A DNA stretch of 37,099 nucleotides from Pelistega sp. (GTDB lineage Bacteria > Pseudomonadota > Gammaproteobacteria > Burkholderiales > Burkholderiaceae_B): assembly GCA_030538255.1 (NCBI GenBank), contig JAUNUI010000027.1:1-37099 (forward strand), given 5' to 3'. Below the pieces are notes generated by a model that worked only from the letters and a program-made list of their open reading frames with translations, was not told the DNA's origin and did not search any database. Below, in pieces: positions 23,642-36,951 of the stretch. The stretch's first letter is position 1; each line of letters starts with the position of its first letter. A program made the position numbers and the translations under genes.

Positions 23642-24412
23642 ATGAAAAAAAACAGTACATTACTACTTAGCAAAAACTTAGCCAAGATTTCAAACTTAGT
23701 GAGTATTCTAAAATATAGTTTTCCTGAATTATATATTGCTTATGATGAATCAACCGTTTATGAAACGATATCGAAAGATAAACCCGATTTAATTGTTATT
23801 GATGCTATGAGCATCAAGAATACATCAATTTGTGTGAGACTTATAAAGAATCATACGTCGCTTATGGATTGTCCTATTGTCATAATTACAGAGGACGATA
23901 ATTCTGATGAAGGAGTTGCCTCATTACGTGAAGGGGCTGCTGATTATTTTTCTATTAGTGTTTGTGATGAAGAGTTTTATCTAAGAATTTCTACACATCT
24001 TAATGATCGTTTAACAGTCACGGCTGATGAAGAAGAGTTAGTTGAGACATTTTCTACAGTTTTTCCTATCGAGGATCGTGATATATTGATACGTTCTGAG
24101 CGCTATTTAAGTAATTTTATGGAAGAGGTTAGGAATGTATCTGATTTATGTTTAGCTATCGGAATTAGTGAACGTAAAATTAATGACATTTTTAAGTTTC
24201 ATCTTGGTGTTTCAACAGCTGAATATATTCGTAATAAGAAAATTCTGAAATCTAAGGAGCTATTAAAAACAACTAGAATGTCTATGTGTGAAATAGCAGT
24301 TGAAGTAGGGTATTCAAGTGCAGCTAATTTTTCGACTGCATTTAAACAATCAATAGGTTTAACACCAAGTACATACAGATCAAAAAATAGAATGTATAAA
24401 TATAATCAATAA
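23642..24412 (+). CDS. Pseudo-receiver AraC-family regulator 1
   Basis: This is a predicted transcription regulator of 256 residues. Residues 1-120 resemble a response-regulator receiver: Asp54 (LIVIDAMS) sits at the phospho-acceptor position and Thr83 (IIT) at the conserved Thr/Ser. The N-terminal acidic pair is replaced by Ser10-Lys11 and the conserved Lys by Ile105 (DYFSIS for DYLTKP), so normal phosphorylation is unlikely. Residues about 160-250 form a double AraC helix-turn-helix, ending IAVEVGYSSAANFSTAFKQS and GLTPSTYR. It precedes the adhesin gene by 309 bp and has its own terminator. A gap-free paralog of equal length lies at 30543-31313. Control of the adhesin modules is inferred from position. 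Confidence 0.85.
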   Translation: MKKNSTLLLSKNLAKISNLVSILKYSFPELYIAYDESTVYETISKDKPDLIVIDAMSIKNTSICVRLIKNHTSLMDCPIVIITEDDNSDEGVASLREGAADYFSISVCDEEFYLRISTHLNDRLTVTADEEELVETFSTVFPIEDRDILIRSERYLSNFMEEVRNVSDLCLAIGISERKINDIFKFHLGVSTAEYIRNKKILKSKELLKTTRMSMCEIAVEVGYSSAANFSTAFKQSIGLTPSTYRSKNRMYKYNQ

Positions 24413-24721
24413 GCGAGCAAGGTTTTAAGGCAGGCAATTTATATTATTAAATTGCCTGCTTTTTTATGTTTAAGCGATTATCCAAATCATAAAATGCGAA
24501 TTAACAACGATAATTTAGACTTAACAATTATTAATAATATGAGTTTTTATAAACTGACATTAATTTTTTAATTTATATCAAATAATATTATTTATTAACA
24601 ATTTAAATAATTGATAGAACTAAATAAAAATAGCTTTCACATCACCAGATATATTACAAAAAAATTATAGAGATCAAATATCTGTGCATGAAATGCAGCA
24701 GAATTATAAAAGGTGAGTGAA
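24413..24721. other. Spacer upstream of adhesin 1
   Basis: This 309-bp stretch, very AT-rich, holds the regulator terminator (24430-24465), a one-mismatch DnaA-like word TTATCCAAA at 24478-24486 and presumably the adhesin promoter. I see no clear -35/-10 pair; CTGACA at 24554-24559 is a possible -35. The ribosome binding site AAAGGTGA at 24709-24716 is just before the adhesin ATG. Confidence 0.5.
24430..24465 (+). terminator. Intrinsic terminator after regulator 1
   Basis: GCAGGCAATTTA (24430-24441) pairs perfectly with TAAATTGCCTGC (24448-24459), 12 bp with a 6-nt loop, followed by TTTTTT. It separates the regulator transcript from the adhesin transcript. Confidence 0.92.
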
Positions 24722-27700
24722 ATGAATAAAGCTTATAAAAGTGTGTATAACGAAAGCTTAGGGAGTTATGTTGCAGTTCCTGAACTAGCGAATGCTAAGG
24801 GTAAGAAAATAAGTTCAGCGCGTGGTTTGATGCAAAGTAAAACTTCTATATTTGCGACTGCAGTATTAAGTACAGCATTAAGTATGTTATCGTCTAATGT
24901 GTTTTCTGCAGTAGGTACAGGAGGTGGTACAGGATATGGTACTGCGATTTCGCATAATTATAATTATTATAATTGTAAAAATGAAGCACAAGCGAATTTT
25001 TTTAGTAGTATAGCAATTGGTTGCGGTTCCGTTGCAGAGCTTCCTAATGATACTCGTACATTATTTTTTACCAGAGATAATCCCTTTAATACTGAAATTC
25101 GAACAGATTTAGAGTTTTATGCAACAGCCATTGGTCATAATGCAAAAGCATATAAAGGTGGTACCGCAATTGGTGACGGTGCACAAGCAGCAGATAAAGA
25201 TAATGAAGGAATAGCCGCTTTAGGTGTTGCTATTGGTGCCCAAGCAATGTCTAGGAATGTTGCTTCGGTAGCTATTGGCCCTGGCGCTTTGGCTACAGGA
25301 AATACTGCTTTAGCAATAGGCCGTCAGACCGCAGCAACCGCTGATTTTGCCCAAGCTATTGGTAATGTGGCTGCAGCAACGGCTAAAGGCTCTTTAGCTA
25401 TTGGCCACTCGGCAACTGCGACGGGCTATCGCGCGATTGCGATTGGTGCCGCTGATATTGAGACTGCAAGCAGTACGGGTGAACAAGCTGGGGTTGTTTA
25501 TCAACCTGCATTACGTTCATATGCAACAGGACGTGATTCGATTGCTTTTGGTGGCGGTGCGAATGCAACGAAAAATAATGCTTTAGCAATTGGTGCGTTC
25601 TCTAAATCTGAGGGTGAGAAATCAGTAGCAATTGGTACAGGTTCAGTCTCTACAGGTTCAGAATCGGTTGCTATTGGTAATCTCTCGAAAACAGCCACTG
25701 GTGCAGTGTCTATCGGTGCTGGTTCAGATGGTTCAGGTAATAATTCAGTGTCCATTGGACGTAATTCAGGTGCTACAGGTGCCAATTCGGTGTCTATCGG
25801 TGAGAATGCTAAAACCATTGCAGGTGGTGTTGCAGTCGGTAAGGATTCGGAAGCTGAACTAGCGAACTCTATTGCCTTAGGTCAAAGTGCAAAAGTTACC
25901 GCAGTTGGCGGTATTGCCTTGGGCCAAGGTTCTCTAGCAGCGATTGCAGGCAATGTGGCTGGTTTTGAGCCAAACTATGCTGATGCCGCTGATAAAGCAG
26001 CGATTTCAGCTACCAAGAGTACATCTGGTGCATTAAGTGTAGGTAGTGTAGCAGTGGGCAATACACCAGCTATTCGTCGTCAAATTTCTAATGTTGCAGC
26101 AGGTACTTTAGATACCGATGCCGTCAATGTTGCACAGTTGAAAGGAGTCGCTAATACTCCATTAAAATTCAAAGGTGATAATGCTACAGTAATTAATCGT
26201 CAGTTAGGTCAACTATTAAATATCCTTGGTGGTGCCACGGCCGCAACGACTGAGCGTAATATCGTGACCACGGGTAATGCGGATGGATCGATCCAACTGG
26301 ATTTGGCTAAAGATCTCAAAGACTTAAGTAGCGCCCAGTTTAAGAATAATACAATACCTACCGTGAAGATCGATGGGGTTGTGGGTGATATCACAGGCCT
26401 GACGAACAAAACCTTAAACGCGGCTGATTTTGCGACTAAAGGGCGTGCGGCGACGGAAGAGCAGTTAAAGCTAGTTAGTGGTACAGCAGGTAAGGGTTGG
26501 AATATCAGTGCCAATGGTGCTACCGCCGCGAATGTGGCACCTGGTGCTCAGGTGGACTTCAGCAGTAGCGATAGCAATATCGTCGTGAACCGTACTGACA
26601 CCAATATTAAACATGGCCTAGCCGCTGATTTAACGATTGGTAATTCCATCACCGTCGGTAATACCACGATAAATACGACATCCGTCACAACCACGAATGT
26701 GAATAGCACGAACGTGAACACGACGAACCTGACTGCCACTGGTGAAACGAAGTTAGGCGATAACTTTATCGTGAATAATGACGGCAAAGTGACCTATAAC
26801 ACGTATGAATTGGCGACACAAAATGACGGTTTGAAGTTTGCGGGCGATAACAAGGCGGTGGTAATTAACCGTAAGTTGAATGAACAATTGAATATCCTTG
26901 GTGGTGCCGCGGCCGCGACGACTGAGCGTAATATCGTGACCACGGGTAATGTAGATGGGTCGATCCAACTGGATTTGGCTAAAGATCTCAAAGACTTAAG
27001 TAGCGCCCAGTTTAAGAATAATACAATACCTACCGTGAAGATCGATGGGGTTGTGGGTGATATCACAGGCCTGACGAACAAAACCTTAAACGCGGCTGAT
27101 TTTGCGACTAAAGGGCGTGCGGCGACGGAAGAGCAGTTAAAGCTAGTTAGTGGTACAGCAGGTAAGGGTTGGAATATCAGTGCCAATGGTGCTACCGCCG
27201 CGAATGTGGCACCTGGTGCTCAGGTGGACTTCAGCAGTAGCGATAGCAATATCGTCGTGAACCGTACTGACACCAATATTAAACATGGCCTAGCCGCTGA
27301 TTTAACGATTGGTAATTCCATCACCGTCGGTAATACCACGATAAATACGACATCCGTCACAACCACGAATGTGAATAGCACGAACGTGAACACGACGAAC
27401 CTGACTGCCACTGGTGAAACGAAGTTAGGCGATAACTTTATCGTGAATAATGACGGCAAAGTGACCTATAACACGTATGAATTGGCGACACAAAATGACG
27501 GTTTGAAGTTTGCGGGCGATAACAAGGCGGTGGTAATTAACCGTAAGTTGAATGAACAATTGAATATCCTTGGTGGTGCCGCGGCCGCGACGACTGAGCG
27601 TAATATCGTGACCACGGGTAATGTAGATGGGTCGATCCAACTGGATTTGGCTAAAGATCTCAAAGACTTAAGTAGCGCCCAGTTTAAGAATAATACAATA

Positions 27701-29566
27701 CCTACCGTGAAGATCGATGGGGTTGTGGGTGATATCACAGGCCTGACGAACAAAACCTTAAACGCGGCTGATTTTGCGACTAAAGGGCGTGCGGCGACGG
27801 AAGAGCAGTTAAAGCTAGTTAGTGGTACAGCAGGTAAGGGTTGGAATATCAGTGCCAATGGTGCTACCGCCGCGAATGTGGCACCTGGTGCTCAGGTGGA
27901 CTTCAGCAGTAGCGATAGCAATATCGTCGTGAACCGTACTGACACCAATATTAAACATGGCCTAGCCGCTGATTTAACGATTGGTAATTCCATCACCGTC
28001 GGTAATACCACGATAAATACGACATCCGTCACAACCACGAATGTGAATAGCACGAACGTGAACACGACGAACCTGACTGCCACTGGTGAAACGAAGTTAG
28101 GCGATAACTTTATCGTGAATAATGACGGCAAAGTGACCTATAACACGTATGAATTGGCGACACAAAATGACGGTTTGAAGTTTGCGGGCGATAACAAGGC
28201 GGTGGTAATTAACCGTAAGTTGAATGAACAATTGAATATCCTTGGTGGTGCCGCGGCCGCGACGACTGAGCGTAATATCGTGACCACGGGTAATGTAGAT
28301 GGGTCGATCCAACTGGATTTGGCTAAAGATTTACAAGGGCTCAACAGTGCCATCTTTACCGCTGGCGGCAATACCACGACACTGAATTCAAGCGGCTTGA
28401 GCATCGCTAATGGCCCAAGCATCACCAATGTCGGTATCGATGCGGGTAATAAAGTGATCACAAATGTGGCACCAGGCGTGAATGGCACGGACGGTGTTAA
28501 TGTCAGCCAACTGAAAGAAATTGAAGCGATTGCCAACAAGGGTTGGAATGTCAGTGCCAATGGTGCTACTGCGGCGAAAGTAGTCCCAGGCGCGACGGTG
28601 GACTTCAGCAATAGCGATGGCAATATCGTGGTGAGTCGCGAAGACACCCAGCTTAAACATAATCTAGCCGCTGATCTCACGATTGATAATTCAGTCACTG
28701 TTGGGGATACGATTATCAATAAGACATCAGTCACAACGACGAACCTAAACACCACCAACCTTAGCGTCTCAGGTGAAACCCAATTAGGGGATAACTTCTG
28801 GGTAACGAAAGAAGGCGATGTGCATTATAACGGCCCAATTACAGGTGACACCCATATTGTCAATAAGAAGTATGTTGATAATAGTATTGGGGAAGTTACA
28901 ACAATTGCCAGTAAGGGTTGGAACATCAGTGTTAATGGTGCTACCGCCGCGAAAGTCGCCCCAGCTGCGACGGTAGATTTAGGCAATAACGATGGCAATA
29001 TCGTCGTGAGCCGTGTCGGTACCGAGGTTAAACACGATCTGAGTTCAAATCTGAAGATTGGTGAAAGCATTACTATTGGTGAGAATACATCGAATCAAAC
29101 GATTATTAAGCAAGGTGGTATTAGCTCAAATACGGTAAATGTTGGTGGTGGTACTTTCAACGTTAAACCAGGTTCAGTATCAATTAAAGAAGGCACCACT
29201 ATTGATATGGGCGGCAATCGTGTGACGAATGTGGCTGAAGGCGTCGCAGGCACGGATGCAGTGAACGTAAATCAACTTAAGGCCGCGATTAGCAACAATA
29301 CGAACTTCCATAGCGAACTTAATCGCGTAGATCGTGATGCGCGTGCGGGCACAGCTTCAGCTGCTGCCATGGCGAATTTACCTCAAGCCTATCTTCCAGG
29401 TAAAAGTATGTTTGCAATTGCCACAGCTGGACACCGTGGTGAACAAGGCTATGCTGCTGGTTTATCAACAATTTCGGAAGGTGGTAAGTGGGTCTTAAAA
29501 GGTTCAGTGTCGGGCAATAGCCGCGGTGACGTCACTTACGGTGCTGGTGTAGGTTACCAGTGGTAA
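24722..29566 (+). CDS. Trimeric autotransporter adhesin 1 (YadA/Hia type)
   Basis: This is a type Vc secreted surface adhesin of 1614 residues, predicted to form a trimer anchored in the outer membrane. An extended signal peptide (MNKAYKSVYNESLGSYVAV, 1-30) is followed by a hydrophobic segment (42-63). The YadA-type head repeats (xAIGxGAxA) span about 96-430. A neck (ISNVAAGTLDTDAVNVAQLK) is near 450-475. The stalk has five KGWN-type modules, three of them in identical 672-bp repeats (about 522-1193). The last neck (TNVAEGVAGTDAVNVNQL) is near 1500 and the YadA anchor ends in GAGVGYQW at 1614. A GTG three codons upstream is possible, but ATG 24722 has AAAGGTGA before it and gives the standard extended signal. 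Cys85 and Cys101 are unusual in such passengers. The TpgA-like gene follows 90 nt later. Confidence 0.95.
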   Translation: MNKAYKSVYNESLGSYVAVPELANAKGKKISSARGLMQSKTSIFATAVLSTALSMLSSNVFSAVGTGGGTGYGTAISHNYNYYNCKNEAQANFFSSIAIGCGSVAELPNDTRTLFFTRDNPFNTEIRTDLEFYATAIGHNAKAYKGGTAIGDGAQAADKDNEGIAALGVAIGAQAMSRNVASVAIGPGALATGNTALAIGRQTAATADFAQAIGNVAAATAKGSLAIGHSATATGYRAIAIGAADIETASSTGEQAGVVYQPALRSYATGRDSIAFGGGANATKNNALAIGAFSKSEGEKSVAIGTGSVSTGSESVAIGNLSKTATGAVSIGAGSDGSGNNSVSIGRNSGATGANSVSIGENAKTIAGGVAVGKDSEAELANSIALGQSAKVTAVGGIALGQGSLAAIAGNVAGFEPNYADAADKAAISATKSTSGALSVGSVAVGNTPAIRRQISNVAAGTLDTDAVNVAQLKGVANTPLKFKGDNATVINRQLGQLLNILGGATAATTERNIVTTGNADGSIQLDLAKDLKDLSSAQFKNNTIPTVKIDGVVGDITGLTNKTLNAADFATKGRAATEEQLKLVSGTAGKGWNISANGATAANVAPGAQVDFSSSDSNIVVNRTDTNIKHGLAADLTIGNSITVGNTTINTTSVTTTNVNSTNVNTTNLTATGETKLGDNFIVNNDGKVTYNTYELATQNDGLKFAGDNKAVVINRKLNEQLNILGGAAAATTERNIVTTGNVDGSIQLDLAKDLKDLSSAQFKNNTIPTVKIDGVVGDITGLTNKTLNAADFATKGRAATEEQLKLVSGTAGKGWNISANGATAANVAPGAQVDFSSSDSNIVVNRTDTNIKHGLAADLTIGNSITVGNTTINTTSVTTTNVNSTNVNTTNLTATGETKLGDNFIVNNDGKVTYNTYELATQNDGLKFAGDNKAVVINRKLNEQLNILGGAAAATTERNIVTTGNVDGSIQLDLAKDLKDLSSAQFKNNTIPTVKIDGVVGDITGLTNKTLNAADFATKGRAATEEQLKLVSGTAGKGWNISANGATAANVAPGAQVDFSSSDSNIVVNRTDTNIKHGLAADLTIGNSITVGNTTINTTSVTTTNVNSTNVNTTNLTATGETKLGDNFIVNNDGKVTYNTYELATQNDGLKFAGDNKAVVINRKLNEQLNILGGAAAATTERNIVTTGNVDGSIQLDLAKDLQGLNSAIFTAGGNTTTLNSSGLSIANGPSITNVGIDAGNKVITNVAPGVNGTDGVNVSQLKEIEAIANKGWNVSANGATAAKVVPGATVDFSNSDGNIVVSREDTQLKHNLAADLTIDNSVTVGDTIINKTSVTTTNLNTTNLSVSGETQLGDNFWVTKEGDVHYNGPITGDTHIVNKKYVDNSIGEVTTIASKGWNISVNGATAAKVAPAATVDLGNNDGNIVVSRVGTEVKHDLSSNLKIGESITIGENTSNQTIIKQGGISSNTVNVGGGTFNVKPGSVSIKEGTTIDMGGNRVTNVAEGVAGTDAVNVNQLKAAISNNTNFHSELNRVDRDARAGTASAAAMANLPQAYLPGKSMFAIATAGHRGEQGYAAGLSTISEGGKWVLKGSVSGNSRGDVTYGAGVGYQW
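26288..28330 (+). repeat. Three identical 672-bp tandem repeats
   Basis: The units 26288-26959, 26960-27631 and 27632-28303 each encode 224 residues and appear identical at the base level where compared. A partial fourth unit runs on to about 28330 (TCGATCCAACTGG through GGCTAAAGAT) before diverging. Upstream of the first unit the match continues imperfectly to about 26217. Each unit carries a KGWN module, a T/N-rich coil segment (TTSVTTTNVNSTNVNTTNLT) and a KFAGDNK-LNILGG segment. Since 672 is divisible by 3, gain or loss of units keeps the frame and changes stalk length. Confidence 0.95.
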
Positions 29567-29588
29567 TACGCTACTAGCCAAGACATAA

Positions 29589-29625
29589 CTTGGGCCATTA
29601 CATGCTATGCATAAGATGGTCCAAG
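29589..29625 (+). other. Hairpin between adhesin 1 and tpgA-like 1
   Basis: CTTGGGCCAT (29589-29598) pairs with ATGGTCCAAG (29616-29625) over 10 bp with one G-T wobble and a 17-nt loop. No T run follows, so it is not a standard terminator. It may stabilise or process the shared mRNA and set the ratio of adhesin to lipoprotein. Confidence 0.5.
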
Positions 29626-29656
29626 GCAATATACTCGAAACGATTAAGGAAAAATA

Positions 29657-30472
29657 ATGAAACCATTTAAATTCAAAGCTATTTTAGTGGCACTTGCTTG
29701 CTCCGTAAGCTTAGTTGCATGCGGTAATATAAGTAAAGTGAGTAGTGATGGTAGTATTGAGGAACCCGTTTGGCCCAAAGTTAAAAGCGTAACGTTTGAT
29801 AAGGGTATGGGAACTTTTCCAAATATAGAAGCTCTTAAACAAGTGAAAGCTGGGATGAGCAAAGATCAGTTGTATTACTTGATTGGTCGCCCCCATTTTT
29901 CTGAAGGCATTTGGGGTGTACGTGAATGGGACTATCTATTCCATTTTCACACTCCTGGGCAAGGCACGAATAATGTGACGACGTGTCAGTTTAAAGTAGC
30001 ATATGATCAGTCAAGTTTAACGCGTAACTTCTTCTGGAAACCTGTCGACCCTGTGGATGGTGTTTGTCCTCCAGGTGCTGGTCCACAGCGTTACACGCTT
30101 GAGGCGGATGCCATATTTACCTTTGACCGCTCTGAGCTCAACTCAATGAATGCACAAGGTCGTGCTCGTTTAGATCAGCTCGTTGCAACGATTAAGGGCT
30201 TTGATCAGTTAAAAGGCGTTACGGTCTATGGCCATACCGATCGCTTAGGCGACGATCGCTATAACCAAGGTTTATCTCAACGCCGTGCCGAGACAGTACG
30301 CCAGTACTTAGTACAAAGCGGGGTTCCTGCACAGCTGATTAGTGCACAAGGCATGGGTGAATCACAGCCTGTTGTGCAATGTAATGAAGCGAATCGTGCA
30401 GAACTTATACGCTGCTTAGCACCTAACCGTCGCGTTGAGGTCAGTGTTGATGGCTCAGGACAATCGCATTAA
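29657..30472 (+). CDS. tpgA: TpgA-like BamE/OmpA lipoprotein 1
   Basis: This is a predicted outer-membrane lipoprotein of 271 residues. The signal peptide ends in lipobox LVAC with Cys22, and Gly at +2 does not signal inner-membrane retention. Residues about 52-130 resemble the BamE/SmpA fold (GMSKDQLYYLIGRPHF, WDYLFHF); about 150-266 is an OmpA-like peptidoglycan-binding domain with GHTDRLGDDRYNQGLSQRRA (Asp195, Arg210) and NRRVEV. Acinetobacter TpgA has this architecture and tethers the adhesin AtaA to peptidoglycan; the same role is inferred here from architecture and from the adhesin gene 90 nt upstream. Two cysteine pairs (110/137 and 242/253) could form disulfides. Its paralog is at 32282-33118. 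Confidence 0.85.
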   Translation: MKPFKFKAILVALACSVSLVACGNISKVSSDGSIEEPVWPKVKSVTFDKGMGTFPNIEALKQVKAGMSKDQLYYLIGRPHFSEGIWGVREWDYLFHFHTPGQGTNNVTTCQFKVAYDQSSLTRNFFWKPVDPVDGVCPPGAGPQRYTLEADAIFTFDRSELNSMNAQGRARLDQLVATIKGFDQLKGVTVYGHTDRLGDDRYNQGLSQRRAETVRQYLVQSGVPAQLISAQGMGESQPVVQCNEANRAELIRCLAPNRRVEVSVDGSGQSH

Positions 30473-30487
30473 AATTCTTAGCTCAGC

Positions 30488-30518
30488 AAAAAAAGACAGT
30501 CTATTAAATTAGGCTGTC
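30488..30518 (-). terminator. Intrinsic terminator of regulator 2
   Basis: On the minus strand GACAGCCT pairs with AGACTGTC (30495-30502 with 30511-30518, one G-T wobble) and is followed by a run of seven T (30488-30494). It ends the leftward regulator 2 transcript just beyond the convergent tpgA-like gene. Confidence 0.8.
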
Positions 30519-30542
30519 CATTATATTGTCAATCTATGATGT

Positions 30543-31313
30543 CTAAAGTGAATTGCGTAAATTATTTTTATATTGACTTGGTGTAATACCTTCAGCATGC
30601 TTAAAGGCCGTGGAAAAATTGGCGGCATTAGAGTATCCCACTTTAACAGCAATCTCATACATATTCATACGGGTTGTGGAGAGCAGGTCTTTTGCTTTCT
30701 TTGTTTTGCTGTTTCGAATATATTCTGCAGCGGTGAGTTGTGTGTGTTGCTTATAAAGTTCATTTAATTTTCGTTCTGTGATACCAACACCAAGTGCCAA
30801 ATCTGCAACATTCTTGATTGCTTCCATATGTGATGTTAAATACTCCATAGAAGCGAGTAATTTTTCTCTATCTTCAAGTGGATATATGGATTCAAAAGGG
30901 CTAGTTTGTGGTTCTTGCCGCTGTTCTTCTTTAGGTGTATTTTGATGAAGCTCTAATTGACGCTGAGCTCTTAAAAGGAACTCTTCATCACTAATATTGA
31001 TCGATATATAATCGGAGGCTCCATCACGCAAATAAGCAACGCCTTCATCTGAAATTTCATTATGTGTAATGACAATAATCGGACAGATTTTTACCGCCAT
31101 TCTATTTTTAATGAAGCGAAGAATGAGAGGTGAGTTTTGTAGGCTTATAGAATCAATAAGAATAAGATTAGGTCTAGGTGTAGCGATAATCTCAGACAGG
31201 GTAGTCTGATCATTACTAATAGAGACTATATGACAATTGGATTTTAAAATATCAACAAATCTGGAAATATTTGTTAAGTCTTTACTCAATATCAGCGCAT
31301 TAAAGTTTTTCAT
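30543..31313 (-). CDS. Pseudo-receiver AraC-family regulator 2
   Basis: This is a paralog of the regulator at 23642-24412, also 256 residues and alignable without gaps over the first 120. Asp54 (ILIDSIS) and Thr83 (VIT) are kept; the acidic pair is Ser10-Lys11 and the conserved Lys is Ile105 (DYISIN), so the receiver is degenerate in the same way. A Gln/Glu/Pro-rich linker (124-140) precedes the double helix-turn-helix, ending IAVKVGYSNAANFSTAFKHA and GITPSQYK. The open frame reaches 31478, but the ATG at 31311-31313 gives the paralog start (MKNFNALILSKDL) and the extra 55 residues are AT-rich spacer. It faces away from the tpgA-like 2/adhesin 2 pair, as a divergently placed regulator would. 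Confidence 0.85.
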   Translation of the reverse strand: MKNFNALILSKDLTNISRFVDILKSNCHIVSISNDQTTLSEIIATPRPNLILIDSISLQNSPLILRFIKNRMAVKICPIIVITHNEISDEGVAYLRDGASDYISINISDEEFLLRAQRQLELHQNTPKEEQRQEPQTSPFESIYPLEDREKLLASMEYLTSHMEAIKNVADLALGVGITERKLNELYKQHTQLTAAEYIRNSKTKKAKDLLSTTRMNMYEIAVKVGYSNAANFSTAFKHAEGITPSQYKNNLRNSL

Positions 31314-32281
31314 AAGATAGCTAAGATAATAAAGTCTATAAAATTTATTCAATGATGATAATACTGAAAAGTTTATAGCTTGAATTATTGAAATAAGAAA
31401 AGCATAGACACAAAAAGTGTTGAGATTCTTTCTGACGTTAAACTTTACTACAGATAAATCATAGCATGAACTTGCCAAATAGTATTTAAAATTTAATGAG
31501 TAACATTTGAATAGAATAGGAACTTATTGAATAAGTAAATATATAATAAAAGCGAATTAATTTTCCTAATCTTAAATGTTATAAGCATGATCAGACGTTC
31601 ATTAATAGTGAAGAGGTGCAGAATAGCTGGATGATTATTTTTAATGATTAAATAACCTTTATAGTTATTTTTAATTGAAATACATAAAATCAAATAGCAT
31701 AACACTATGACAATAATTATTATGTTAGCTAATTCATAATAGTCCTTATAAAAATTCTTATCAACAGTATAAACACGCGTGTTCTTATTCTATAAATCGC
31801 ATTTAGGGTAATAAGTTCAAAGGTCTCTTAATATTGAGATGACATAAATTACGGTAACACGCTCACCCAGGCAATACCTAAAAATTACACATTTTCTGTG
31901 CGCATATTAGTAATTTATGCCTTTTTTGTCCTTCACAAAGCATTCTTTATTCATTAAAGTAATAAATAGACCACTTCCGACTGTTGTAATTTAGTAATTT
32001 TTCTAAAAATCACTATTTCTAGTGATATCTAACAAAATTTATTTGATATAGAATATAATAAAGGTTTCTAATAATAATCAAATGTAAATGTAGATTTATA
32101 AAAAAACAGCTTTAGAAAAAACATAACATATAGATTCATTTTAGTAACCTTCCCAAGGGGACAAAAGACCTAAAAGGATTTTTAAAGCAATTTTCTTATG
32201 CATAGTGATTGTTCCGGCATTTGATAATGTTTCTTTAGATTTTGTTTATCCACAATAGTATTCTTACAAGATAGGTGGGTT
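31314..32281. other. 968-bp spacer between regulator 2 and tpgA-like 2
   Basis: This very AT-rich stretch should hold the divergent promoters of regulator 2 and of the lipoprotein-adhesin pair. I see no credible gene. A short inverted repeat ATCACTA/TAGTGAT (32009-32015 and 32020-32026) could be an operator. TTGATA at 32221-32226 with GTTTAT 17 nt later is a weak candidate promoter. A perfect DnaA box TTATCCACA lies at 32246-32254. The size of the gap, about three times that upstream of adhesin 1, suggests extra regulation or decayed DNA. Confidence 0.5.
32246..32254 (+). promoter_or_regulatory. Lone DnaA box upstream of tpgA-like 2
   Basis: TTATCCACA matches the DnaA box exactly and lies 28 bp before the lipoprotein start codon. 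It could let DnaA affect this promoter, or be chance in AT-rich DNA. Confidence 0.4.
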
Positions 32282-33118
32282 ATGAGCAAGTACCAAGTAA
32301 GTAGGACTGATTATAAATATAAAGCAAAATTAGCAGCTATTATGGCGGCGCTAACATTAGCCGCCTGTGGCAATCTCAGTAAGGTAAGTTCTGAGGGCAT
32401 GACTGAAGATCCAATCTGGCCAGACCCAACGCAAGTGGGTATGAATAATGGTAAGGGTACATTTCCTGATAGAGATGCTTTGAAAGAAGTTGAAGCAGGG
32501 ATGACGAAAGATCAGCTCTACTACTTAATTGGTCGCCCGCATTTTCGTGAAGGGATCTGGGGCGTGCGTGAGTGGGATTACCTCTTTCATTTCCATACTC
32601 CTGGGCAAGGCACGAATAATGTGACGACGTGTCAATTTAAAGTGCTTTATGACAAGAACTTGTTTACACAAAGTTTCTTCTGGAAGCCTGTTGACCCAGT
32701 GGATGGCGTCTGCCCTCCAGGCGCAGGTCCACAGCGTTACACGATTGCGGCAGATGCCTTATTCGCCTTTAACCGCTCAGACCTCAATTCAATGAATGCA
32801 CAAGGTCGAGCCCGATTAGATGAGCTAGCTAGCACGATTAAGGGCTTTGATCAGTTAAAAGGCGTTACGGTCTATGGCCATACCGATCGCTTAGGCGACG
32901 ATCGCTATAACCAAGGTTTATCTCAACGCCGTGCCGAGACAGTACGCCAGTACTTAGTACAAAGCGGGGTTCCTGCACAGCTGATTAGTGCACAAGGCAT
33001 GGGTGAATCACAGCCTGTTGTGCAATGTGATAACGCTAATCGCACAGAACTCATCCGCTGCTTAGCACCGAACCGTCGTGTGGAAGTCAGTGTTGATGGC
33101 TCAGGACAATTGAAATAA
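32282..33118 (+). CDS. tpgA: TpgA-like BamE/OmpA lipoprotein 2
   Basis: This second predicted outer-membrane lipoprotein of the TpgA architecture has 278 residues. The N-terminus is longer (MSKYQVSRTDYKYKAK) before the hydrophobic stretch and lipobox LAAC with Cys29, Gly at +2. The BamE-like domain (about 58-137) has GMTKDQLYYLIGRPHFREGIWG; the OmpA-like domain (about 157-273) repeats GHTDRLGDD and NRRVEV. Positions 32834-33028 are identical in DNA to the first copy (30188-30382). AGGTGG before the ATG supports the start. It precedes adhesin 2 by 149 nt, the reverse of the order in module 1, and is inferred to tether that adhesin to peptidoglycan. Confidence 0.85.
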   Translation: MSKYQVSRTDYKYKAKLAAIMAALTLAACGNLSKVSSEGMTEDPIWPDPTQVGMNNGKGTFPDRDALKEVEAGMTKDQLYYLIGRPHFREGIWGVREWDYLFHFHTPGQGTNNVTTCQFKVLYDKNLFTQSFFWKPVDPVDGVCPPGAGPQRYTIAADALFAFNRSDLNSMNAQGRARLDELASTIKGFDQLKGVTVYGHTDRLGDDRYNQGLSQRRAETVRQYLVQSGVPAQLISAQGMGESQPVVQCDNANRTELIRCLAPNRRVEVSVDGSGQLK

Positions 33119-33233
33119 ATAGATAAATTTCACTTTTAAATTATCGACCGTTAATATATTTTATTAAGTTACTTTAATTTGTAAATAATAAGTAGAGCTT
33201 ATTCAGTAGAGTAAGGCTTAACGGTTTTTTGCA

Positions 33234-33260
33234 CCCTTTTCCTACTAGAAAGGGGGGGAG
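33234..33260 (+). promoter_or_regulatory. SD hairpin and G7 tract before adhesin 2
   Basis: CCCTTTTC (33234-33241) can pair with GAAAGGGG (33248-33255) over 8 bp with one wobble and a 6-nt loop. The right arm overlaps the strong ribosome binding site, a run of seven G at 33252-33258 followed by AG, nine bases before the ATG at 33268. The structure could hide the site, and G-tract length change would alter both pairing and spacing. Confidence 0.5.
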
Positions 33261-33267
33261 AATAGCC

Positions 33268-36200
33268 ATGAACAAGACATTTCGTAGTATTTACAATGAA
33301 TCGCTAGGTGCTTGGGTTGCCGTTTCTGAGCATGATTCGGCCAAGGGGAAGAAGTCAGGATCTGCAGTGAATGCAAGTGCAGGGGCTAGGAGTAAGACTT
33401 TCAATCTTAAGGCTATATGTTCAGTGTTTGTAGTGCTGGGTGCATTTGCAATACCTGAAATTAGTGCTGCACAGACTCCCTGGACGCCACCGAGCTCTTT
33501 AATTTGTCGTTCAGGTCAATATTTGAATAGTTTTTATTGTGATCCCACGATTTCCCCCAGTGTGACTCCACCAATGCCTGATTATGCGATTGGAATTGGT
33601 GCTGGAAGTACAGAGCATATAGTTGCTCATGGAGCAAGTTTTGGTTCTGGCAGTATCGCCAATCGTGCAGCTATTACAGCAACAGACACATACGTCGGGA
33701 AAGGTACGGCAGAAGTGGATGCAACCGTAGCAAGTACACGAGCGGCTTTCTCAGTGGGTAGTGATGGTGCAGGCGACCCAACGAAAGCATTTACCCGTCA
33801 AATTACGAATGTCGCTGCAGGTAGTGCCGATACTGATGCGGTGAACGTGGCGCAGCTGAAAGCCTTAACGCTGAGCAGTGGTGATATGCACTACTATAGT
33901 GTCATTTCAGTTGAAACAGGTGCAGGCTCTAATTATGCTAATGATGGGGCGTCTGGGACGAATTCCTTAGCGGCAGGGGTGCGTACTAAAGCCGAAGGCA
34001 CGAATGGCCTAGCCATTGGCACGGGTGCTTATGCAGGCAAGAAAGATGGGACGTATACGCAAGCCCCAAGTACACCTGGTGGAAGCACGATAGTTGATGT
34101 ATCCAGTCAGCCTAATAATACGATTGCGATTGGTGCTGGTGCTCAATCAAGTGCCGGCAATGGCATTGCTATTGGTACAGATGCCAAAACTTATCAAGGG
34201 TGGAACTATGATAAAGGAGGTAAGCCATGGGCGAACAACTACGGTATTGCCATTGGTACTGAAGCCACCGCGATTAATAATAATATCGTCGTTGGTAATG
34301 TAGGTGCTGAAAATCTGAAAGCCGCGGGCAGTGAAACGAATCCAAGAAATATTAATAATATTACGCTTGGTAATGGTGCGGGTGTCGGTGTTTCGGGTAA
34401 TGAAAATATTATCTTCGGCTACCAAGCAGCGCAGGGCTTAAGTAGTTATGGTGGCAACGTGGCGATTGGTGCAAGCGTGGCTACTAATGCGACCCTAGCC
34501 AGTAGTGTAGCTATAGGCTCGAATGCTGGTTCGAATGCAAAAGGCAGCGGTAATGTATTAGTTGGCGCGAGTGCAGGTACCAATATCCGCCCCTCATCCG
34601 AGGTTGCAGGTGTGACGATTACTTGCTCGTATTGGGACTATTACTGCCAAGGTGCAACAGGTGATGGCAGCAACAATACCATGATTGGTCCAAGTGCAGG
34701 ACGGGATAGTGCAGGTGCTGTGAATGTCAATATTGGCTTTACTGCAGGGCAGAATTCTGTTGGTATGAATAATGTGAATATTGGCTCTGCAGTGGCGACC
34801 AAGGCCCAGGGTATTGCTAACGTATGGATTGGTACACAATCAGCTGAAGGCTCCAAGGGTAATACGAACACGGGTGTAGGTAATTATTCGGGCTCTTGGG
34901 TACAGGGTAATAGTAATACCGCTTTAGGTAATGGATCGGGTGGTAGTGTTAAGGGTGATAGCAATACGGGTATCGGCCGTGCAGCGGGCTCAAGTGTGAC
35001 GGGTCATCATAATACGGCGATAGGTGCTGCTTCTGGCGGAACAGTAAGTGGTGATTACAACTTCGCCGCTGCTTTTAATGCGGGTCGCTTTGTTGTTGGT
35101 CATGAGAATGTTGCAATCGGTCGTGGTGCTGGCCAGGGAACGTCAAGCGCAAAGCTTGAAATTAATAGGACTGTTGCAGTGGGTCAGTCATCCAAAGCGC
35201 AAAGTAATGATGCCATTGCAATTGGTACTGGCGCCATTGCTGGCCAATCAAGCACGGGTATAAATTCAATTGCTATAGGCCGTAGCACACAAGCAACTGG
35301 TGCTAGTGCACTTGCTATGGGTGATGGTGCACAAGCTACGGGCAGTAACTCAATTGCCATTGGTACAGGCACGAAAGTGTTTGCGAACAATGCAGGTGCC
35401 TTTGGTGATCCAACGGAAATTAAGATTGGTGCAGATGGAGCGTACTCAGTCGGTAACGATAATACCGTGACTAAAGAGAATATCTTTGTCATGGGTAATA
35501 ATGTCACCGCCGATTTAGCAGGTTCTGTAGTATTAGGTAATGCCGCTGATGGTACTGTGGCGAGTAAATACGTACAAACCACAAGTGCAACACTGAATGG
35601 CTTGACTTATGGTGGCTTTGCGGGCTCTGGTGTGTTGACTGATGGTGCCGTGGTGTCGATCGGTGCAGCGGGTGCTGAGCGCCAAATTAAGCATGTCGCT
35701 GCTGGGCAGATTAGTGAAACAAGTACGGATGCGATTAATGGCAGTCAACTCTATGCGACCAATAAAGTTTTAGGCAATGTCGCCAATAGCACGAAAAATA
35801 TTTTAGGCGGTAATGCGACCTTAAATATTGATGGCTCGATGACGATGAGCGATATTGGTGATACAGGTGAAAATACCGTCCATGATGCGATTAAAAAGGT
35901 GAAAACAGACATTACGAATGTTGAAATTATTGCGACTAAGGGTTGGAATGTTAGTGCGAATGGTTTAGCAAGTGCGAACGTTGCACCCGGGGGTCTTGTT
36001 GACTTCGGTAATAATGATGGCAATATCGTGGTGAGTCGCTCAGGAACCAATCTTAAGCATGATCTGAATGCCGATTTAAAGATTGATAACTCGATTACCG
36101 TAGGTGATACATTTATCGATAAGAGCTCGGTAACAACGACCAACCTCACCGTGAAAGAGGAAACCAAATTAGGGAATAATTTCTGGGTGACGAAAGAAGG

Positions 36201-36951
36201 CGATGTACACTATAACGGTCCTATCACCGGTGACACCCATATTGTCAATAAGAAGTATGTTGATAGTAGTATTGGAGAAGTTAGTGAGATCGCCAATAAG
36301 GGTTGGAATGTGAGTGCCAATGGTGCTGCAGCAGAAAAAGTCGCTCCTGGGGCAACAGTCGATTTTGGCAATAATGATGGCAATATCGTGGTGAGTCGCG
36401 TGGGCACGGATATTAAACATGATCTGAGTGCAAACCTTAAGGTTGGTGAGAGCCTCACTATCGGTGGTGATACGACGAACCAGACGATTATCCAGCATGG
36501 CAATATTAGCTCAAATTCGATGAATGTTGGTGGTGGCACCTTGACGGTTAATCAGGGATCGGTATCGGTTAAGGAAGGCACGACAGTGAATATGGGCGGT
36601 AACCGTATTACGAATGTTGCCGAAGGGGTAGCGGGTACGGATGCGGTGAATGTAAATCAACTTAAAGCCGCGATTAGCAATAATACTAACTTCACAGGAG
36701 ATTTGAACCGTATTGACCGTGATGCACGTGCGGGTACAGCAGCCGCTGCAGCGATGGCGAACTTACCGCAAGCCTACTTACCAGGTAAAAGTATGTTTGC
36801 CATTGCCACAGGTGGTCACCGTGGTCAGCAAGGTTATGCAGTGGGTTTATCAACTATCTCCGACGATGGTGATTGGGTCTTAAAAGGCTCCGTCTCTGGT
36901 AATAGCCGTGGCCATGTCACCTATGGTGCAGGTGTTGGTTATCAGTGGTAG
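33268..36951 (+). CDS. Trimeric autotransporter adhesin 2 (YadA/Hia type)
   Basis: This second type Vc adhesin has 1227 residues. The extended signal peptide MNKTFRSIYNESLGAWVAVSE is followed by a hydrophobic segment (about 47-68). An early neck (ITNVAAGSADTDAVNVAQLK) lies near 175, before a long head of AIGxGA and less usual NTGxGxxSG repeats (about 234-710). A second neck (IKHVAAGQI...TDAINGSQLYATNKVL) lies near 804. There are two KGWN modules (about 890 and 1010), and the YadA anchor ends in GAGVGYQW. The last 270 residues or so match adhesin 1; the long repeat stalk is absent, so it should be shorter and head-rich. An in-frame ATG at 33229 was rejected in favour of 33268, which has the G-rich ribosome binding site and gives the standard signal. 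The mature passenger has several cysteines. Confidence 0.95.
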   Translation: MNKTFRSIYNESLGAWVAVSEHDSAKGKKSGSAVNASAGARSKTFNLKAICSVFVVLGAFAIPEISAAQTPWTPPSSLICRSGQYLNSFYCDPTISPSVTPPMPDYAIGIGAGSTEHIVAHGASFGSGSIANRAAITATDTYVGKGTAEVDATVASTRAAFSVGSDGAGDPTKAFTRQITNVAAGSADTDAVNVAQLKALTLSSGDMHYYSVISVETGAGSNYANDGASGTNSLAAGVRTKAEGTNGLAIGTGAYAGKKDGTYTQAPSTPGGSTIVDVSSQPNNTIAIGAGAQSSAGNGIAIGTDAKTYQGWNYDKGGKPWANNYGIAIGTEATAINNNIVVGNVGAENLKAAGSETNPRNINNITLGNGAGVGVSGNENIIFGYQAAQGLSSYGGNVAIGASVATNATLASSVAIGSNAGSNAKGSGNVLVGASAGTNIRPSSEVAGVTITCSYWDYYCQGATGDGSNNTMIGPSAGRDSAGAVNVNIGFTAGQNSVGMNNVNIGSAVATKAQGIANVWIGTQSAEGSKGNTNTGVGNYSGSWVQGNSNTALGNGSGGSVKGDSNTGIGRAAGSSVTGHHNTAIGAASGGTVSGDYNFAAAFNAGRFVVGHENVAIGRGAGQGTSSAKLEINRTVAVGQSSKAQSNDAIAIGTGAIAGQSSTGINSIAIGRSTQATGASALAMGDGAQATGSNSIAIGTGTKVFANNAGAFGDPTEIKIGADGAYSVGNDNTVTKENIFVMGNNVTADLAGSVVLGNAADGTVASKYVQTTSATLNGLTYGGFAGSGVLTDGAVVSIGAAGAERQIKHVAAGQISETSTDAINGSQLYATNKVLGNVANSTKNILGGNATLNIDGSMTMSDIGDTGENTVHDAIKKVKTDITNVEIIATKGWNVSANGLASANVAPGGLVDFGNNDGNIVVSRSGTNLKHDLNADLKIDNSITVGDTFIDKSSVTTTNLTVKEETKLGNNFWVTKEGDVHYNGPITGDTHIVNKKYVDSSIGEVSEIANKGWNVSANGAAAEKVAPGATVDFGNNDGNIVVSRVGTDIKHDLSANLKVGESLTIGGDTTNQTIIQHGNISSNSMNVGGGTLTVNQGSVSVKEGTTVNMGGNRITNVAEGVAGTDAVNVNQLKAAISNNTNFTGDLNRIDRDARAGTAAAAAMANLPQAYLPGKSMFAIATGGHRGQQGYAVGLSTISDDGDWVLKGSVSGNSRGHVTYGAGVGYQW

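Follow-up and report, generated by a model that had tools for sequence, protein, structure and literature searches.

A probably duplicated and rearranged locus for trimeric autotransporter adhesins and TpgA-like lipoproteins with AraC-type pseudo-receiver regulators in Pelistega sp.

The window analysed here comprises 37,099 nucleotides from Pelistega sp. (assembly GCA_030538255.1, contig JAUNUI010000027.1, positions 1 to 37,099 of the forward strand). It contains a locus of six genes, R1, T1, Lp1, R2, Lp2, and T2, all of which are intact open frames at the positions that a first-pass annotation of this DNA had given them. R1 (23642-24412, plus strand) specifies a 256-residue AraC-type regulator with a pseudo-receiver, as judged from its sequence, Pfam, the pocket columns, and a structural model. 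It is followed on the plus strand by the gene of a trimeric autotransporter adhesin (TAA), T1 (24722-29566), and by that of a TpgA-like lipoprotein with BamE and OmpA domains, Lp1 (29657-30472). R2 (30543-31313), which sequence and Pfam mark as a paralogue of R1 and which also has 256 residues, is located on the minus strand, where it points towards Lp1 and away from Lp2; its start is the ATG at 31313, in an open frame that extends to 31478. An AT-rich intergenic region of 968 bp (31314-32281) separates it from Lp2 (32282-33118, plus strand), which specifies the second BamE and OmpA lipoprotein and is followed by the second TAA gene, T2 (33268-36951, plus strand). The two halves had been described as two like three-gene modules. 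They do contain the same kinds of genes, but their layouts differ: R1, T1, and Lp1 follow each other on the plus strand, whereas R2 is divergent from Lp2 and T2. Likewise, Lp1 lies 90 bp downstream of its adhesin gene while Lp2 lies upstream of T2.

A consensus scan revealed an intrinsic-terminator-like hairpin of 15 pairs between R1 and T1 (24427-24462, plus strand) and a second terminator-like hairpin 3' of Lp1 (30495-30518, plus strand), among a total of 14 such sites in the region versus 10.0 ± 2.5 in shuffled sequences. As a consequence of the first hairpin, R1 is probably transcribed alone, while the closely spaced T1 and Lp1 may form one operon. A promoter scan was uninformative (37 sites versus 35.7 expected) and an Rfam scan revealed four tRNAs and nothing else. 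The first-pass annotation had suggested that the regulators may select between the two adhesins. No operator-like 16-mer (at most two mismatches, at least five G/C) common to the promoters of the two modules was found. When six intergenic regions were compared, using three simple shuffles per pair as background, one weak 16-mer overlap was seen, between the R2-Lp2 region and the region upstream of R3, a third regulator gene of this genome that is discussed below.

The ESPR, YadA_head, YadA_stalk, and YadA_anchor domains all scored above the Pfam cut-off in T1 as well as T2, and by this domain content both are classed as type Vc TAAs. T1 has 1614 residues counted from its ATG, the open frame opening at a GTG at 24713, and T2 has 1227 residues from its ATG. 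Their last 330 residues are identical at 260 of 334 aligned positions. The earlier distinction between a long-stalk and a head-rich adhesin holds in so far as T1 has a long repeated stalk and T2 the longer head region, with a short stalk; T1 also carries a YadA-type head, which precedes its stalk. The repeats in the T1 stalk (26288-28330, plus strand), detected by self-identity, consist of approximately three identical units of 672 bp, the sequence matching itself exactly for 1371 bp when shifted by 672. The copy number of this repeat may be variable, or repeats may have been collapsed in the assembly.

Both lipoproteins have BamE and OmpA domains above the Pfam cut-off, and a lipobox was read by eye in each of them (LVAC in Lp1, LAAC in Lp2). 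TpgA was the top NCBIfam family for Lp1 and Lp2, with scores of 158.5 and 156.2 bits, respectively, below the equivalog cut-off of 350 bits, and the N-terminal part of Lp1 matches the solved TpgA structure 9vnj_B (E 1e-11). Judged by these matches, the two proteins are TpgA-like rather than members of TpgA proper, and the pairing of adhesin and TpgA-like lipoprotein that had been noted before is borne out. A similar pair is AtaA-TpgA of Acinetobacter sp. Tol 5, in which the TAA gene is followed by that of a periplasmic protein with BamE(SmpA)-like and OmpA-like parts. According to the accessible part of the source, the TpgA of AtaA is without a lipobox Cys (PMC5861075), unlike Lp1 and Lp2, and the parts of the AtaA-TpgA accounts available to us mention no regulator, whereas the locus described here has R1 and R2. 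Salmonella SadB-SadA also combines a TAA with an accessory lipoprotein that serves it; SadB is an inner-membrane trimeric lipoprotein to which TpgA has no similarity, as stated in the part of the report at hand (PMC8151025).

Lp1 and Lp2 are identical at 215 of 278 aligned positions (77 %). Within the OmpA domain, a tract of 195 bp (30188-30382 in Lp1, plus strand; 32834-33028 in Lp2) is the same in both genes, while the stretches flanking it are 57 to 70 % identical at third positions. The presence of an identical tract inside diverged genes makes gene conversion of the peptidoglycan-binding OmpA domain probable. R1 and R2 are identical at only 121 of 259 aligned positions (47 %). The divergence of the regulators is far above that of the lipoproteins and the gene order differs, so the locus did not arise simply by the recent tandem copying of a block of three genes. 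A stand-alone, full BamE-OmpA lipoprotein with 53 % identity to Lp1 was also seen at L026 4110-4931 (G000:C16), adjoining tpiA-like and secG-like genes and some 30 kb from a TAA on that contig.

In R1 and R2, HTH_18 (73 and 72.3 bits) and HTH_AraC scored above the Pfam cut-off, while Response_reg, with 23.1 and 19.7 bits, remained under its cut-off of 30.2 bits. In the model of R1 (mean pLDDT 93.5, pTM 0.61), a receiver fold in which five strands alternate with helices is connected to an AraC HTH, and Foldseek matched the receiver and AraC domains of this model separately. The pocket residues, in the order acidic pair, Asp, Thr/Ser, and Lys, are SK/D/T/I in R1 and R2 and SK/D/T/Y in R3. Thus, the β3 Asp (D54 in R1) is retained in all three, and the acidic pair and the Lys are lost. 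Together with the fold of the R1 model, this upholds the degenerate receiver ascribed to R1 and R2. AraC-type response regulators paired with 7TMR-DISM kinases have the same receiver-AraC architecture and are homologous to them over nearly the full length. R1 and R2 share with these the HTH and the receiver fold and lack the phospho-pocket and the adjacent kinase: in a BLAST search with one 7TMR-DISM kinase as query, R1, R2, and R3 all lacked a match at a distance of 2.5 kb or less, and no kinase was noticed by eye among the open frames of the window.

The genome specifies three full-length regulators of the R1 type, R2 and R3 being 48 and 49 % identical to R1, respectively. R3, which is closest to R2 and has kept the conserved columns, is located on another contig, and no adhesin or adhesin remnant was found in the 36 kb searched around it. 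Upstream of R3 (L025 3957-5281), 1.3 kb without a frame of at least 100 residues was seen by eye to contain many degenerate TTTTTCATGC-like repeats.

Outside the window, genes were called mechanically. Of 200 genomes of the family, 49 contain a relative of the regulator (E ≤ 1e-20), 50 a relative of the lipoprotein (E ≤ 1e-28), and 69 a YadA anchor. With the 150 anchors that were listed, at least 53 of the 65 lipoprotein matches lie within 3 kb of a YadA anchor and at least 14 of the 67 regulator matches no more than 10 kb from a TAA anchor, versus 0.49 expected. Three of these 67 matches are from the genome studied here, and the 60 stretches inspected account for 63 of the remaining 64, all but G074:C2:131994. 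Among the anchors listed, eight of the 53 lipoprotein-TAA pairs had one of the 67 regulators at a distance of at most 12 kb, and some of the other pairs have weaker or receiver-less AraC-type genes nearby.

A same-strand AraC-HTH gene at most 1.5 kb upstream was present for 10 of 26 TAAs versus none of 302 other open frames (Fisher p 1.5e-12), where the 26 are the assessable TAAs from loci that had been selected for their lipoprotein and anchor and the controls are mechanical open frames of at least 150 residues from the same loci, some of them surely spurious. The other 16 TAAs have no AraC-HTH gene upstream. A receiver-like domain was present in five of the 10 upstream genes, and no receiver was recognised in the other five. 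When the loci chosen by regulator were included, an AraC-type gene was located upstream in 17 of the 31 pairs of TAA and lipoprotein, from 10 genera, and 12 of these 17 regulators, from eight genera, have a receiver-like domain; the 31 are those of the 53 pairs that remained after short contigs, unfetched relatives, and unclear frames had been left out. With 17 of 31 pairs, the arrangement is recurrent, not universal. The order regulator, TAA, BamE/OmpA lipoprotein was also found in relatives, among them Paenalcaligenes niemegkensis, Pusillimonas caeni, and a Castellaniella MAG. In two loci (L155 and L252), the TAA-side regulator has an intact pocket, and a further small AraC-type gene lies between it and the TAA.

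The search for this neighbourhood in related genomes, which the first-pass annotation had called for, thus established that the link between regulator and adhesin recurs in other genera. That a dedicated regulator accompanies each pair is not supported as a rule. R3 has no adhesin nearby, and no AraC-type gene was found upstream of the three readable ones among the five other TAAs of this genome, which has 7 YadA anchors. In addition, the six other genomes of the genus have 4 to 11 YadA anchors each, and a regulator of the R1 type is absent from all six at E ≤ 1e-15. Nor are regulators of this type confined to the company of adhesins, as R3 illustrates, an outcome that the first-pass annotation had itself set against its proposal, though R1 and R2 do sit in an adhesin locus.

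In a tree of the family, R1, R2, and R3 cluster with the TAA-upstream regulators of P. niemegkensis, P. caeni, and the Castellaniella MAG (support 100/99), and R2 is the sister of R3 rather than of R1 (support 100/95); the tree program warned of long branches meeting, the R1-R3 clade among them. When 268 genomes of the family were searched with a profile of the six clade members, no additional close relative came up. The six scored at least 360 bits and the next protein 148 bits, a gap that is partly there by construction since the six are the profile's own rows. A common four-gene unit of regulator, TAA, lipoprotein, and regulator, shared with G083 and G105, was considered and rejected, because the second regulator in those two genomes is kinase-paired and belongs to another clade while R2 groups with R3 and R1.

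The phospho-pocket, made up of the acidic pair, Asp, Thr/Ser, and Lys, is complete in 22 of the 24 kinase-adjacent members of the family, unlike in R1, R2, and R3. Adjacent here means at most 2.5 kb from a kinase of the 7TMR-DISM type, which was assigned by Pfam for one representative and by BLAST for the rest. A complete pocket was found in two of the 15 members directly upstream of a TAA, 11 of which have kept the β3 Asp, and in seven of the 34 members that lack both an adjacent kinase and a TAA directly downstream, a class to which R2, R3, and two regulators next to decayed TAAs belong. As 27 of these 34 are degenerate as well, loss of the pocket follows the missing adjacent kinase and not the presence of a TAA. 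The L157 regulator, which has an internal stop, is included in these counts and was left out of the tree. A tree-based test of pocket loss using independent pairs yielded too few informative pairs. In a second, named set, a 7TMR-DISM-type kinase was present near 30 of 48 receiver-AraC proteins.

Members of the family also occur beside other adhesion genes, examples of which were chosen by eye from the maps and do not represent a count. A chaperone-usher operon adjoins the members in L104 and L131, pga-type genes adjoin those in L105 and L152 (in L152 according to sequence clustering), a BapA-like giant adhesin adjoins the L110 member, and the L119 member lies next to an RTX adhesin and the ABC transporter that belongs to it. 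In Cupriavidus numazuensis and a Rhodocyclaceae MAG, members with a kinase lie beside large ESPR-bearing proteins that have no YadA anchor match. Many other members have housekeeping or unrelated genes as neighbours. The adhesion examples support a frequent role of the family in the regulation of adhesion and an action of its TAA-side members on the adjoining TAA.

Another published system that comes close is the BCAM0218-BCAM0228 cluster of B. cenocepacia. In the part of the report available, its three TAAs are accompanied by a lipoprotein, two histidine kinases, and three proteins named response regulators, and the kinases and regulators are proposed to control the TAAs (PMC3404963). Its TAAs are organized in divergent units, one of them co-transcribed with the lipoprotein, and two of the regulators are transcribed singly between the units, as described in the same part of that report (PMC3404963). 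The regulators of the two loci are likened here by description only, and the B. cenocepacia cluster has two kinases (PMC3404963, accessible part) while none was found in the locus of the window, which has the other parts. No account of an AraC regulator with a pseudo-receiver that accompanies a TAA was found in the accessible parts of the open-licence literature, a body of work that misses most subscription journals; a combination of TAAs, a lipoprotein, and regulators has been published. The adhesin and its helper are a pair of a known kind, and the regulators apparently form a recurring group beside adhesion genes that has not been described.

We consider it fairly probable that the six genes constitute a TAA-TpgA-like adhesion locus that was locally duplicated and rearranged and that would be run by kinase-independent AraC-type pseudo-response-regulators. 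R1 and R2 share their ancestry, along their whole length, with the 7TMR-DISM-paired AraC-type response regulators, several of which lie beside adhesion operons. With no adjacent kinase and with the acidic pair and Lys lost, the receiver probably serves as a platform for dimerisation or for the sensing of a ligand or protein, and not as a phospho-switch. A phospho-switch would have to be operated by an orphan kinase located elsewhere that phosphorylates the β3 Asp. The retention of this Asp in R1, R2, R3, and most of the TAA-adjacent members agrees with such a role, which is nevertheless improbable given the change of the acidic pair to SK and of the Lys to I, I, and Y in R1, R2, and R3, respectively, at positions that nearly all kinase-adjacent relatives keep.

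Judged by gene position, R1 most likely controls the directly downstream T1-Lp1 and R2 the divergent Lp2-T2. By analogy with TpgA, Lp1 and Lp2 would tie the adhesin barrels to the peptidoglycan and aid surface display. R1 and R2, and maybe R3, could instead govern a wider biofilm regulon and have come to lie beside adhesins when an entire adhesion cluster was copied or relocated as one, without being dedicated to either pair. The lack of an adhesin near R3 and of a common module-specific motif would suit such regulators, as would the pga, chaperone-usher, BapA-like, and RTX adhesin operons that adjoin some family members. The immediate upstream position on the same strand in 10 genera, which was not seen for a single one of the 302 control frames, speaks against it, and we regard a wider regulon as rather unlikely. 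It is very improbable that one of the modules is a decaying duplicate with the second regulator as a functionless by-product. The lack of an R1-type regulator in the six other genomes of the genus and the far greater divergence of R1 and R2 than of Lp1 and Lp2 could be read in that way, but all six open frames are intact, the AraC HTH of R2 is above the cut-off, and R3 has kept its conserved columns.

A broader proposal can be put forward, albeit tentatively and as a possibility that we would not call likely. The receiver-AraC family would provide portable regulators of adhesion operons (TAA-TpgA, chaperone-usher, pga, and BapA/RTX) in Burkholderiales and beyond. Where the 7TMR-DISM kinase was lost, the receiver would have decayed into a pseudo-receiver that senses something else, possibly the state of assembly of adhesin and lipoprotein, and thereby acts as a kinase-free local switch for each giant adhesin. 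To our knowledge, the timing of the display of giant adhesin fibres by cells is poorly understood, and a recurring class of upstream regulators that is often without kinase and pocket provides a testable handle on the control of TAAs, together with a natural series that leads from an intact two-component system to a kinase-free regulator.

Some minor observations were made in the related loci. Further regulator-like proteins are specified downstream of the TAA cassettes at L144 17142-17948, L257 7504-8319, and L249 7456-7932; two of the three have a DNA-binding domain of the OmpR type (Pfam Trans_reg_C), and one, of 158 residues, has no Pfam match and is receiver-like by eye. A small lipoprotein-like protein of approximately 190-220 residues (cluster c32), the Pfam match of which is below the cut-off, is specified at L100 2484-3089 and at the equivalent place in L112, L113, L144, and L148, after the TAA or its lipoprotein. 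The regulators at L247 4735, L262 7168, and L264 7316 start with MNQTYKSIWCERT or close variants of it, which by eye resemble the ESPR start of the downstream adhesin; from their sequences, these regulator starts look as if they had been copied from the 5' end of the adhesin gene.
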